64,000 nt of DNA from Ramlibacter sp. (lineage in GTDB: Bacteria; Pseudomonadota; Gammaproteobacteria; Burkholderiales; Burkholderiaceae_C): positions 1,116,001 through 1,180,000 of the forward strand of contig JAHBZN010000001.1 of the NCBI GenBank assembly GCA_019635415.1, given 5' to 3'. Of the stretch, positions 11,555 through 15,677 are shown in pieces. Position numbers and translations under genes: made by a program. Below the pieces are notes generated by a model. That model did no database searches and was not told the DNA's origin. It saw only the letters and a program-made list of their open reading frames with translations. Numbering within the stretch: position 1 is the first letter of the stretch; each line of letters opens with the position of its first letter.

Positions 11555-11638
11555 CGCCCCGGTTGGCCCCAGCCGGCCCCCCACCGGCGCGAGTCACGCG
11601 CCAGGCGTATGCTGGTCCCTTCAAGGAGATCACACCGC

Positions 11639-12700
11639 ATGCGCTACACCGCTTTGGGCCAGACCGGCCTGTATGTTTCTGAACTGTGCCTGGGCACCAT
11701 GACCTTCGGCGGCGCCGAAGGCATGTGGGGCAAGATCGGCACGCTGCAGCAGGCCGAGGCCGAAACCCTGGTCGGCCAGGCGCTGGACGCCGGCCTGAAT
11801 TTCATCGACACAGCCGACGTGTATGCCGGCGGTGCCTCGGAGCAGATCACCGGCCAGGCCCTGAAGAACCTCAAGGTGCCGCGCGACAGCGTGGTGGTGG
11901 CCACCAAGGTCTTTGGTGAAACCACCGGCGGGCCCAATGGCCGGGGCCTGTCGCGCAGCCACATCATCGATGGTGTCCAGGCCAGCCTCAGGCGGCTGCA
12001 GCTGGACCACATCGACCTGTACCAGGTGCATGGCTTTGACCCGGCCACACCCATGCAGGAAACACTGGAAGCGCTGGACCTGCTGGTGCGCCACGGCCAC
12101 GTGCGCTACGTGGGCGTGTCCAACTGGGCTGCGTGGCAGATTGCCAAGGCGCTGGGTCTCTCGCAGCGCCTGAACCTGGCGCGGTTTGCGTCGCTGCAGG
12201 CCTACTACACCGTGGCCAGCCGCGAGCTGGAGCGCGAGCTCGTGCCCATGCTGCGCAGCGAAGGCGTGGGCCTGATGGTCTGGAGCCCGCTGGCCGGCGG
12301 CCTGCTCAGCGGCAAGTACACCCGCGAGATGGAAGCCGAAGCTGGCAGCCGCCGCGTGGCGTTTGACTTTCCGCCCGTGGACAAGGACCGCGCCTGGAAA
12401 TGCATCGACGTCATGCGCCCCATCGCCGAGGCCAAGGGCGCCAGCGTGGCGCAGGTGGCGCTGGCCTGGCTGCTGCACCAGCCGTGCGTGAGCAGCGTCA
12501 TCGTCGGCGCCAAGCGGCCCGACCAGTTGGCCGACAACATCGCGGCGACGAAGTTGTCGTTGACGGCCGATGAGATGGCACAGATCGACCAGGTGAGCCA
12601 GATTCCGGCAGAGTACCCGGGCTGGATGTTTGAGCGCCAGGGCGAATACCGGCGCAATCAGATGGCGCAGGCGGTGAAGCAGCCTGGCAGAGTGGGCTGA
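11639..12700 (+). CDS. Aldo/keto reductase
   Basis: A 353-residue (alpha/beta)8-barrel NADPH-dependent oxidoreductase. The catalytic tetrad positions are visible: Asp and Tyr in FIDTADVYAGGASE, Lys in VVATKVFGE and His in LYQVHGFD. The C-terminal SSVIVGAKRPDQLADN binds the cofactor phosphate. The ATG at 11639 follows AAGGAG at suitable spacing; an in-frame ATG at 11609 has no such site. The physiological carbonyl substrate is not evident. Confidence 0.88.
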   Translation: MRYTALGQTGLYVSELCLGTMTFGGAEGMWGKIGTLQQAEAETLVGQALDAGLNFIDTADVYAGGASEQITGQALKNLKVPRDSVVVATKVFGETTGGPNGRGLSRSHIIDGVQASLRRLQLDHIDLYQVHGFDPATPMQETLEALDLLVRHGHVRYVGVSNWAAWQIAKALGLSQRLNLARFASLQAYYTVASRELERELVPMLRSEGVGLMVWSPLAGGLLSGKYTREMEAEAGSRRVAFDFPPVDKDRAWKCIDVMRPIAEAKGASVAQVALAWLLHQPCVSSVIVGAKRPDQLADNIAATKLSLTADEMAQIDQVSQIPAEYPGWMFERQGEYRRNQMAQAVKQPGRVG

Positions 12701-12718: not shown

Positions 12719-12782
12719 TTCTGAATGAAAAGTGCCTGGAGTCCAGGAGGGGCGGTACTTTTCAGCTATCAAAAAGAGAGCG
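12719..12782 (+). repeat. Dispersed repeat copy B
   Basis: Starts 19 bases after the aldo/keto reductase stop. The arms AAAAGT and ACTTTT face each other around an inner perfect palindrome, CCTGGAGTCCAGG, so this copy forms a strong hairpin. The 3' end GCTATCAAAAAG is shared with copies C and D. Confidence 0.8.
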
Positions 12783-12947
12783 ATTGGCCCGACCAGACAT
12801 GCCGCGCGGTGCATGTGGCTGTGGGGTTTGACTGGCTTTTTATTTTGCTGAGGCGATGCAAGAATGTGCCAAACTTTCAATCGGGGCAACTACTTGGCGC
12901 AGGTTTGTATGACCAGCTTATCGAGCAGGTAGTGCTCTATGCATTAA

Positions 12948-12954
12948 GTTAGGT
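12948..12954 (+). other. Integron-type core site GTTAGGT at left edge of cassettes
   Basis: GTTAGGT matches the GTTRRRY recombination core used by integron integrases. It lies 19 bases before the first cassette gene. No RYYYAAC partner or palindrome was found in the 170 bases before it, so it may be a decayed attI site or a secondary insertion site rather than a complete attC. Confidence 0.5.
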
Positions 12955-12972
12955 CTCGCAGCAGGAGGGCGG

Positions 12973-13368
12973 ATGGAACTAAAGAACTTCATATCGCAGG
13001 CGCTTACTTCAATCGTTGAAGGGGTTGTCGATGCTCAGAAAAAGACTGAGAAGTTGGGCGCTCACGTGAACCCCGGTGGACTGACGCGAACCACCCAGCA
13101 CATATCAAACGACGCGCTATGGGATAACACGACGAACAACTTTGCCCGGCTGGTGAACTTTGACGTCGCCGTGACTGTGGAGGAGGGGACGAAGACCAAT
13201 GCAAAGATTGGCGTCGTCGCCGGTGTTCTCAATCTGGGTGCGGGCGGAGCGTCGGAGAACAAGGAACTCGCCGTGAGTCGTATCCAGTTCTCCGTCCCTG
13301 TCTTGCTTCCCGTGGTCCAAAAGGAGGGCGCGCGTGCGCCGAAGCTCAAATACCCGGCGAGGACCTAA
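12973..13368 (+). CDS. Integron cassette protein, Trypco2-like hypothetical
   Basis: A 131-residue protein of unknown function. It starts MELKNFISQALTSIVEGVVD, a short amphipathic helix. A beta-rich middle reads NFDVAVTVEEGTKTNAKIG, then a small glycine-rich loop (GVLNLGAGGASE), then AVSRIQFSVPVLLP. That layout resembles small proteins labelled trypsin-co-occurring domain 2 (Trypco2), but the match is from memory. The ribosome site AGGAGGGCGG is strong. The stop codon TAA lies inside the attC core ACCTAAC, as is usual for cassette genes. Base composition is clearly lower in GC than the neighbours. Confidence 0.7.
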   Translation: MELKNFISQALTSIVEGVVDAQKKTEKLGAHVNPGGLTRTTQHISNDALWDNTTNNFARLVNFDVAVTVEEGTKTNAKIGVVAGVLNLGAGGASENKELAVSRIQFSVPVLLPVVQKEGARAPKLKYPART

Positions 13369-13433
13369 CGGGGCGATCGACTCGGACACATTGCTGCCCC
13401 TACCGTAACGTGCCTGGCACCTTCAAGTTAGGC
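13363..13433 (+). other. Integron attC recombination site 1
   Basis: Bounded by ACCTAAC (13363-13369) and GTTAGGC (13427-13433), complementary cores of the forms RYYYAAC and GTTRRRY. Inside, GGACACATTGC can pair with GTAACGTGCC with one extrahelical base and mismatches, as in folded attC hairpins. The total of 71 bases is a normal attC length. It separates two unrelated genes in the same orientation. Confidence 0.75.
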
Positions 13434-13440
13434 GTCTCAA

Positions 13441-14124
13441 ATGCCGCGAAGACAACGAACTGGGGAATGCGTTTACTGTGGCCGGACGGGCCCTGTAACC
13501 GCGGATCATGTCCCGCCGAAATGCCTGTTTCCACGAGAGTCACGCCTGAACTTGATGACGGTAGACGCCTGCAACACTTGCAATAGCTCTTTCAAGCAAG
13601 ACGACGAGTACTTCAGAATCGTCTTGTCATTCCGATCTGATCTGCCACAGAACGAAAACTCTGAGTTCCTTAAGAGCCAGACGAAGCGAAGCTTGAAGAA
13701 GGTCGAGGCAAAAGGTCTCCGCAAGTCTCTCCGTGCAGCGACTTCTCTGCGGCCACTCCACTCCGAGGGCGGCATTTACCTAGGTCATGCGCCATCATTG
13801 AAGATTCAGTCTTCGAGAATCATTCGAACATCAGATCGAATCATTAGAGGTCTGTACTCAAAGCTCTTCGGAGTGTCCTTGCCGCAAATCTACGAGGCGT
13901 CTGCAGTCCTTCTGGATCTACAAAGAGACGGTTCTGCAATAAACCATCCGGACGTACAAGAATCACTAAAGCTTGTTGTCGGTACAGGTGTACACAAAAA
14001 ATACGGAGATGTTCTCGATGTCTACGCTTTGCATGTCGAAGACGATCCCTTCTCTAGCATGTGGCTGGTCAGGTTGCACGAGGTGTTTAGCTTCATTGGC
14101 TACACCAATCCAAGAGATGCCTAG
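13441..14124 (+). CDS. Integron cassette protein with HNH-type zinc motif
   Basis: A 227-residue protein. The N-terminal part has CVYCGRTGPVTADHVPPK and, about 20 residues on, ACNTCNSSFKQDDE. These CxxC pairs around a DH motif are the usual HNH endonuclease or HNH-like zinc-finger arrangement. The rest, about 170 residues, is not recognised. The gene starts 8 bases after the attC1 core and ends in TAG inside the next core GCCTAGC (14119-14125). Low GC and rare-codon use mark it as acquired. A DNA-cutting or defence role is possible but not shown. Confidence 0.72.
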   Translation: MPRRQRTGECVYCGRTGPVTADHVPPKCLFPRESRLNLMTVDACNTCNSSFKQDDEYFRIVLSFRSDLPQNENSEFLKSQTKRSLKKVEAKGLRKSLRAATSLRPLHSEGGIYLGHAPSLKIQSSRIIRTSDRIIRGLYSKLFGVSLPQIYEASAVLLDLQRDGSAINHPDVQESLKLVVGTGVHKKYGDVLDVYALHVEDDPFSSMWLVRLHEVFSFIGYTNPRDA

Positions 14125-14187
14125 CCCTTCCATCGAGAGGACTTAGCCCGGCAAGCGGGTCTAAGCCTCCCATATCAAACATCAGTG
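14119..14187 (+). other. Integron attC site 2 with decayed right core
   Basis: Starts GCCTAGC, continues CCCTTCCATCGAGAGG and ends CATATCAAAC. These match a widespread attC family whose right side normally reads CATGTCAAAC followed by GTTAGGC. The stem AGGACTTAGCCCG / CGGGTCTAAGCCT is well formed. The right core is ATCAGTG here instead of GTTRRRY, so the site is probably no longer recombination-competent. Confidence 0.72.
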
Positions 14188-14331
14188 CTGTAAAAAATTT
14201 GGCCTGAAATTTCACATGCATTGCCTGAAAAATCAACGCATCAAAACGACGCACACGCCACGATCCTCGGTAAAGGAAGGGGTTGAGTACCCCCTAAGCA
14301 GCACCCTCGGGTATCTCAAACTGAGGACACC

Positions 14332-14889
14332 ATGGGACTCCTGACCTTCAGCATCAACGTCACTCTGGACGGCTGCATCGACCACCAGGAAGGAATCGCC
14401 GACGACGAGACGCACGCCTTCTTCACCCGCCTCATGGACGGGGGCGGGGCGATGCTGTGGGGCCGCGTCACCTACGAGATGATGGAGAGCTATTGGCCAG
14501 CGGTTGCCCGGGGTGACGAGGAGGCGCCGCCAGCGATTCGCGAATGGGCGGTCAAGCTGGAGGCCAAGCCGAAATACGTGGTGTCCTCGATGCGCAAGGA
14601 CTTCCCGTGGACCAACAGCCACCGCATTGCAGGCGATCTGCGCTCGGGCATACAGAAGCTCAAGGACGCGACCCCCAACGGCGTGCTCCTTGGCAGCGGC
14701 AAGCTGGCGGCCGAACTGGACCGGCTCGATCTGATCGATGAGTACCAGTTGCTCGTCCACCCCCGGATCGCCGGCCACGGCCCGACCCTGTACGAGGGCG
14801 GGCTGCCCGGCACGCGGCGGCTCGAGTTGATCTCAGCAAAGCCGCTTCGCAACGGCGCGGTCGCCATGCACTACCGGCGCGCGCGCTGA
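14332..14889 (+). CDS. Dihydrofolate reductase / RibD C-terminal family protein
   Basis: A 185-residue protein with the DHFR-like fold of the RibD C-terminal domain family (YwjB/YyaP group). It shows SINVTLDGCIDHQEG at the start, AMLWGRVTYEMME (cofactor region), NGVLLGSGKLAAELDR and HPRIAGHGPTLYEGG. It probably uses NADPH, but these stand-alone proteins are mostly uncharacterised. The GC content matches the chromosome and no attC follows, so it does not look like a third cassette. The ATG follows TGAGGACACC. Confidence 0.8.
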   Translation: MGLLTFSINVTLDGCIDHQEGIADDETHAFFTRLMDGGGAMLWGRVTYEMMESYWPAVARGDEEAPPAIREWAVKLEAKPKYVVSSMRKDFPWTNSHRIAGDLRSGIQKLKDATPNGVLLGSGKLAAELDRLDLIDEYQLLVHPRIAGHGPTLYEGGLPGTRRLELISAKPLRNGAVAMHYRRAR

Positions 14890-15015: not shown

Positions 15016-15080
15016 ATTTTTGAATGAAAAGTGCCTGTAGCCCAGGCAGGCCGGCACTTCTACGCTATCAAAACAGGAGC
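15016..15080 (+). repeat. Dispersed repeat copy C
   Basis: AAGTGCC pairs perfectly with GGCACTT across the core. Compared with copies D and F (AAGTGGC with GTCACTT) both arms changed together, a compensatory change. The methyltransferase stop codon lies inside this copy. Confidence 0.85.
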
Positions 15081-15677
15081 GGCCTGCAGCACCATGCGGG
15101 TCCATGACACGTCGGTCCGCCCGAACAGGCCCGTGGTGCTGACCGAGCACAGCGGCACGAGGCCGTGGGGCCTGGCCGACTCGGCCAGCTCGGCGCCACG
15201 GACGTCGAACATGCGCCGGCCCTCGGGGATGGGGCCGTGGCGCAGGCTGAACGACAGGCGCCCGCCGGGTTTGACCAAGGTGGCCAGCGCGGCCATGCCG
15301 GCATGGCGCTCGTCGGCGTCCAGGTGCATCCACACGGCGGTCAGCAGGATCAGGTCGTAGCGCTGCGGCCGGGCGATGGCCACAGGCAGAGCGGGCAGAC
15401 TGTCATCGAGCCACTCGATGCCCAGCCCCGCGTGGGCCTGCTCGCCATACGTCCGCAGCTCGGGCGTGGGCTCCAGGGCTGTGACGCGGTGCCCCTGGCG
15501 TGCCAGAGCGGCCGCGTCGCGGCCCGTGCCGGCCCCCACGTCCAGCACGTCTGCAGGCGCCCTGGGGTACAGGTGCATCACTTCGCCATGGACCTGCTCG
15601 AAGCTCAGGCTCTCGTACTGCGGGATGAGCGCCGGGGCTGTTTCGCTGTAGCCGGCGGTGGAGGGCAGGGGCAGCAT
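15060..15677 (-). CDS. Class I SAM-dependent methyltransferase
   Basis: A 205-residue methyltransferase. Motif I is VLDVGAGTGRDAAAL at residues about 43-57; further motifs are VTALEPTPELRTYG and YDLILLTAVWMHLDADE. The ATG at 15677 begins MLPLPSTAGYSE; the frame is open further upstream, but that region is repeat copy D. The final residues VLIA and the stop lie in repeat copy C, so the native C-terminus may have been altered by the repeat. The substrate is not predictable. Confidence 0.8.
   Translation of the reverse strand: MLPLPSTAGYSETAPALIPQYESLSFEQVHGEVMHLYPRAPADVLDVGAGTGRDAAALARQGHRVTALEPTPELRTYGEQAHAGLGIEWLDDSLPALPVAIARPQRYDLILLTAVWMHLDADERHAGMAALATLVKPGGRLSFSLRHGPIPEGRRMFDVRGAELAESARPHGLVPLCSVSTTGLFGRTDVSWTRMVLQAAPVLIA

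Follow-up and report, generated by a model that had tools for sequence, protein, structure and literature searches.

The cassette region at positions 12948–14187 of the window (the whole 64-kb stretch of DNA analysed here) is a cluster of attC sites lacking an integrase (CALIN), anchored on an orphan attI site and fossil in this genome. In most respects it is an ordinary CALIN; the part deserving attention is the recurrence of orphan attI sites with changing cassettes. We consider it likely that an old chromosomal integron platform lost its intI and kept its attI, that cassettes would then have kept entering and leaving the orphan site by means of an integrase supplied in trans from elsewhere in the cell, and that the array would have turned fossil in this genome because no intact intI remains there. 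Both the action of an integrase in trans and the loss of intI before the change of cassettes are what we infer from the compared sequences.

The region comprises two cassette genes, each followed by a degenerate attC site. The original prediction had described a two-gene cassette remnant without an integrase, and the strings on which it relied were all found in place (GTTAGGT at 12948–12954, ACCTAAC at 13363–13369, GTTAGGC at 13427–13433, GCCTAGCCCTTCCATCGAGAGG from 14119 and ATCAGTG at 14181–14187), as were the stop codons within the following cores (TAA at 13366–13368, TAG at 14122–14124) and the lower GC content, which drops from 0.64–0.69 in the flanks to 0.47–0.59 across both genes. Cassette gene 1 (12973–13368, forward strand; 131 aa) belongs to no recognised family, with no match in Pfam, NCBIfam, PADLOC or PHROGs, and a 38% identical relative in G150 sits between attC sites. 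Cassette gene 2 (13441–14124, forward strand; 227 aa) carries an HNH-type nuclease domain at residues 5–59 (HNH_5, E 2e-4, below the curated cut-off; PHROGs HNH, E 5.5e-6), and its relative in the array of G212 likewise sits between attC sites. As in gene cassettes, a single gene has its stop codon in or beside an attC site and exact G|TT borders, the left of which was confirmed by comparison with the sister species G001. Both genes are absent from this congener and have distant relatives in just 7 and 6 of the 350 other family genomes, so that neither is a core gene, as had been anticipated. Neither the cassette region nor attI matched any sequence in plasmid searches. The left chromosomal flank, outside the array, is occupied by an aldo/keto reductase gene (11609–12700, forward strand; Pfam Aldo_ket_red, 9e-80) that holds the same position in G001 with 94% DNA identity. 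An intergenic repeat of ~60 bp, GAATGAAAAGTGCCTG...CTATCAAAA, occurs at 12719–12781 and about 15019–15081, on either side of the cassette locus, and has dozens of matches in the same genome and in G001.

The two attC sites were assessed with a covariance model (R1) built here, which is not that of IntegronFinder, from 17 sites of this and related genomes with the window sites left out; the alignment of these 17 sites contains clear paired changes. The intervals that had been predicted gave the best two hits in the 64 kb, both of them weak: attC 2, of the CCCTTCCATCGAGAGG family (14119–14187, forward strand), ranked first with 15.3 bits (E 0.19), and attC 1 (13363–13433, forward strand) ranked second with 13.9 bits (E 0.39), compared with mostly 30–64 bits for sites located elsewhere in this genome or at other loci of the sister species, some of which were themselves in the model. 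In attC 1 both core boxes are intact and the inner pairing is mostly lost, and the site folds no better than its shuffles (z 0.17); attC 2 keeps its central stem and is ~80–87% identical to many attC sites of the G212 array. Neither site was picked up by a simple attC scanner, since their inner pairing is lost, and an Rfam search of the 9–18 kb part of the window gave no match. The two intervals are degenerate attC sites, and with at least two attC sites and no intI nearby the locus falls within the CALIN class, which bears out the first of the two options that the original prediction had left side by side.

At the right end, the site itself stands, whereas its final ATCAGTG, previously taken for a decayed right core, turns out to be the start of a truncated small element. 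This element, ~165 bp when entire and without a gene, occupies approximately 14181–14306 (forward strand) at the core of attC 2, lacks its right ~45 bp and was recognised by homology (79% identity over 76 bp, E 9.5e-12). Further copies lie in attC cores, three in G180 and one in G037 (L074 5400–5590, 6180–6370 and 10460–10650; L096 ~1501–1680). It is rare, being present in 3 of 401 family genomes, and in every case located at an attC G|TT core; its ends are roughly inverted A/T runs (GARGYTGTAAAAAAAC), with GTT at both borders. Our initial reading was that of a cassette devoid of a gene, but we recognised no attC belonging to the element itself, and it could be a small transposon-like element (a miniature transposon targeting attC), a reading as likely as that of an unusual cassette. 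Beyond it lies a RibD_C/dihydrofolate-reductase-like gene (14332–14889, forward strand; 185 aa; RibD_C, 3.8e-13) which is common to the window and G001, its attC and most of its leader having been lost in both. In G272 this gene is found between two attC sites (54–56 and 32 bits), and in G200 and G020 beside one; in the window it is a third, fixed cassette. Since RibD_C is a cassette in other genera, the window array once had at least three cassettes. The locus is larger than the two cassettes originally described: it also includes an attI, this third cassette and the small element at the right junction, none of which had been noticed.

At the left junction a degenerate attI is located at 12907–12954 (forward strand), with its core GTTAGGT at 12948–12954 and the crossover at 12948|12949, and is 87.5% identical over 40 nt (E 9e-8) to the attI of G004, which adjoins a full-length IntI (358 aa) and lies directly before the first cassette of the G004 integron. 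Of the two TTATnGAGCAGG direct repeats kept in the other aligned attI sites, the window attI retains one. An alignment of 18 attI regions, four of them adjoining a large intI frame, further delimits a remnant of the intI-attI spacer at 12826–12922 (no strand assigned), although in the window itself the match outside the ~45-bp attI is weak. Near the left end of this spacer, GGGGTTTGAC can be aligned to the opening codons of intI in reversed orientation (ATG/GTG AAA CCC), where the similarity ends; this short match may represent a remnant of the intI start. No intI similarity was found within 1.5 kb upstream of the locus, and a promoter scan of the attI region detected no sigma-70-like site. 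As compared with a complete integron, the locus thus has an attI as its insertion point, though a degenerate one, and no intI beside it. The junction is an attI, homologous to sites that adjoin a full-length intI in other genera; it seems to have kept part of the intI-attI spacer, and intI is gone.

The lack of an integrase extends from the window, for which it had been claimed, to the whole genome (99.99% complete), where no IntI exceeded the family cut-off; the genome-wide search returned two intI remnants. One, at C12:382.6k, consists of the intI start and end fused in a 165-aa frame, and corresponds to the G001 locus that bears a full-length IntI (C1:1525094–1526050); the other, at C12:640.4k, retains the intI start only. 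After each of them come an attI-like sequence, of a different type, and cassettes with good attC sites. The window attI also differs in type from the attI adjoining the intact intI of G001. With decay seen in attI, attC 1 and attC 2, the attC of the third cassette lost and no intact intI in the genome, the fossilised appearance of the array noted earlier is confirmed.

Comparison of the locus in relatives had been proposed with an empty site in mind; the orthologous site of G001 is not empty and holds different cassettes at the same point. The left flanks of the two species are identical at 461 of 499 aligned positions (92%) up to the crossover, after which G001 has two different genes beginning exactly after the core G|TT, one good attC (48.9 bits) and then RibD_C, with no intI at the locus. 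The inserts have no similarity to each other (best blastn match, 11 nt). Given that both species lack intI at a site with the same left flank, the simplest order of events is a loss of intI ahead of the split and a change of cassettes after it; on this comparison of two species, the cassettes at the window locus probably turned over after the loss of intI. Different cassettes would also be expected if the ancestor had a longer array from which each lineage lost different members.

The same arrangement recurs at other positions. In the present genome C12:797k and C14:34k have attI-like left ends followed by cassettes, without intI, and when compared with their G001 counterparts (1937k and 94k, respectively) the left flank is kept and identity drops right after G|TTA. 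Two further pairs of loci, L091/L093 and L152/L092, show orphan attI sites with conserved left flanks, different first cassettes and no intI beside them. At the compared loci attC sites come after the orphan attI, and in five orthologous pairs the first cassette begins exactly at the attI G|TT. At C14:34k/G001:94k a stretch of 419 bp after the first attC (L137 4538–4956, L142 3461–3879) is 99.3% identical, against 89–92% in the flanks, the pattern that a recent move would leave, and this cassette thus probably moved after the species split. These observations bear directly on the main alternative, that one long ancestral array with its own intI lost that gene and was shed piecemeal, different parts in different lineages, without any activity in trans. 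Such differential decay is in keeping with the common RibD_C cassette in which both species end and with the decaying state of all parts here; however, random deletions would rarely leave an exact G|TT joint in both lineages, let alone in five pairs, and the 99.3% identical stretch is younger than its flanks, so that we regard this alternative as unlikely.

We judge equally improbable a scenario in which complete integrons never existed at these loci, and in which a defective intI-attI unit spread by copying to several sites on the chromosome, which then received cassettes. The remnants at C12:382k and C12:640k (L075 about 3785 and L076 about 3335) share the unusual joint CGTTGG|TGCGCTGCGCAGGTGG at different loci and with different cassettes, which looks as if one defective intI copy had been duplicated or converted; the intI remnants of G342 and G208 likewise share a joint, from aa 58 to 306, several orphan sites stop within the first intI codons, and duplication of pseudo-integrons within a genome has been proposed before (PMC2426708). 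On the other hand, we saw no mechanism of copying, and on the side of the cassettes the loci have no outer boundary in common; a joint could also be spread by gene conversion from one locus to another, and the copies in G208 and G342 may in part be orthologues.

The remaining option of the original prediction, solitary cassettes inserted by an integrase elsewhere into a secondary (attG-like) site that was never an attI, is a known route to CALINs (PMC8618304) and could draw on the weak spacer match beyond the ~45-bp attI in the window, but we deem it very improbable and rejected it, as the left junction is homologous to the attI adjoining a full-length intI, different cassettes occupy the same point in the sister species, and the attI family that the junction matches gave zero reversed-control matches in 401 genomes.

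This family was delimited with a search pattern that drew in part on the window, G001 and G004 and allowed up to three mismatches, which retrieved 14 sites in 10 of the 401 sampled family genomes; the window, G001 and the main site of G004 match by construction, so that the actual test lies in the other 11 and in the reversed control pattern, with 0 sites in the same 401 genomes. An exact scan of genome contigs added attI sites in metagenome-assembled genomes (MAGs) labelled Acidovorax and Polaromonas. Large intI frames adjoin members of the family in G004, G342, G008 and L090. Among the 14 sites, full-length intI lies beside 3, intI fragments beside 5 and no intI within 1.5 kb of the remaining 6, an intact gene thus being lacking at 11. 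Several of the orphan sites break off within the first intI codons. Genome-wide, an IntI above the cut-off was absent from the orphan-site genomes G000, G200, G299, G124, G208 and G403, some of these absences possibly being gaps since several of the orphan-site genomes are drafts or MAGs, and present in G001, G004, G037, G342 and G402.

CALINs, attC clusters without intI, have been attributed to loss of intI, off-target insertion or rearrangement, and their cassettes can be mobilised in trans (PMC9024848, PMC8618304, PMC12444791); in a large survey they were about as common as complete integrons (PMC9024848). The window cassettes, with attC sites and no intI nearby, resemble this class, but differ in that their left end is a recognisable orphan attI with a partial intI spacer and that the locus is conserved between species whereas its cassettes differ. 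In the portions of the Xanthomonas study considered here (PMC12444791), integrons have inactivated intI genes and CALINs sit at seven conserved loci, a situation akin to ours as regards an old chromosomal platform, frequent loss of intI and conserved CALIN positions. Those portions take the conserved positions as a trace of ancestral activity and make no mention of attI at them, while here an attI marks both the window locus and every one of the other four conserved loci examined. About one-third of intI genes are pseudogenes, some of them arisen through duplication inside a genome (PMC2426708); in contrast to such pseudo-integrons, intI has here for the most part been deleted, not frameshifted, and one and the same genome has several loci with attI and cassettes. 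Insertion at a secondary (attG) site would share with our locus the presence of cassettes without a neighbouring integrase, but the junction would then be a minimal site and not an attI. A limited literature search turned up no description of CALINs that are anchored on an orphan attI and exchange their cassettes. Outside class 1 integrons attI, a poorly described site, is not detected by IntegronFinder 2.0 (PMC9024848), and because attI has not been searched for outside that class, such orphan sites would have been missed so far.

If many CALINs start at an orphan attI, their conserved positions would have a simple cause, and integrase-free clusters would be extra sockets usable by any integrase in the cell instead of mere wrecks. 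A broader version, possible though not one we would favour at present, is a distributed integron: in this group of bacteria a genome would have about five attI sites scattered over its chromosome, most of them without intI, that serve as docking points where one integrase made elsewhere or arriving later inserts different cassettes; if true, it would explain many integrase-free clusters at conserved chromosomal positions. The comparison employed here, which looks for a common flank, differing cassettes and a break placed exactly at G|TT, is applicable to any genus.

Two other attC-bearing regions came to light. In the present genome a lone attC (L138 3452–3509; C12:298k) adjoins a fragment resembling an IS3-type transposase. 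In G212, the region at about 5047k–5194k of C1 (L072, L073, L078 and L159), with over 40 near-identical attC sites within the portion read and a full-length intI at 5193404–5194348, is probably a very large chromosomal integron.
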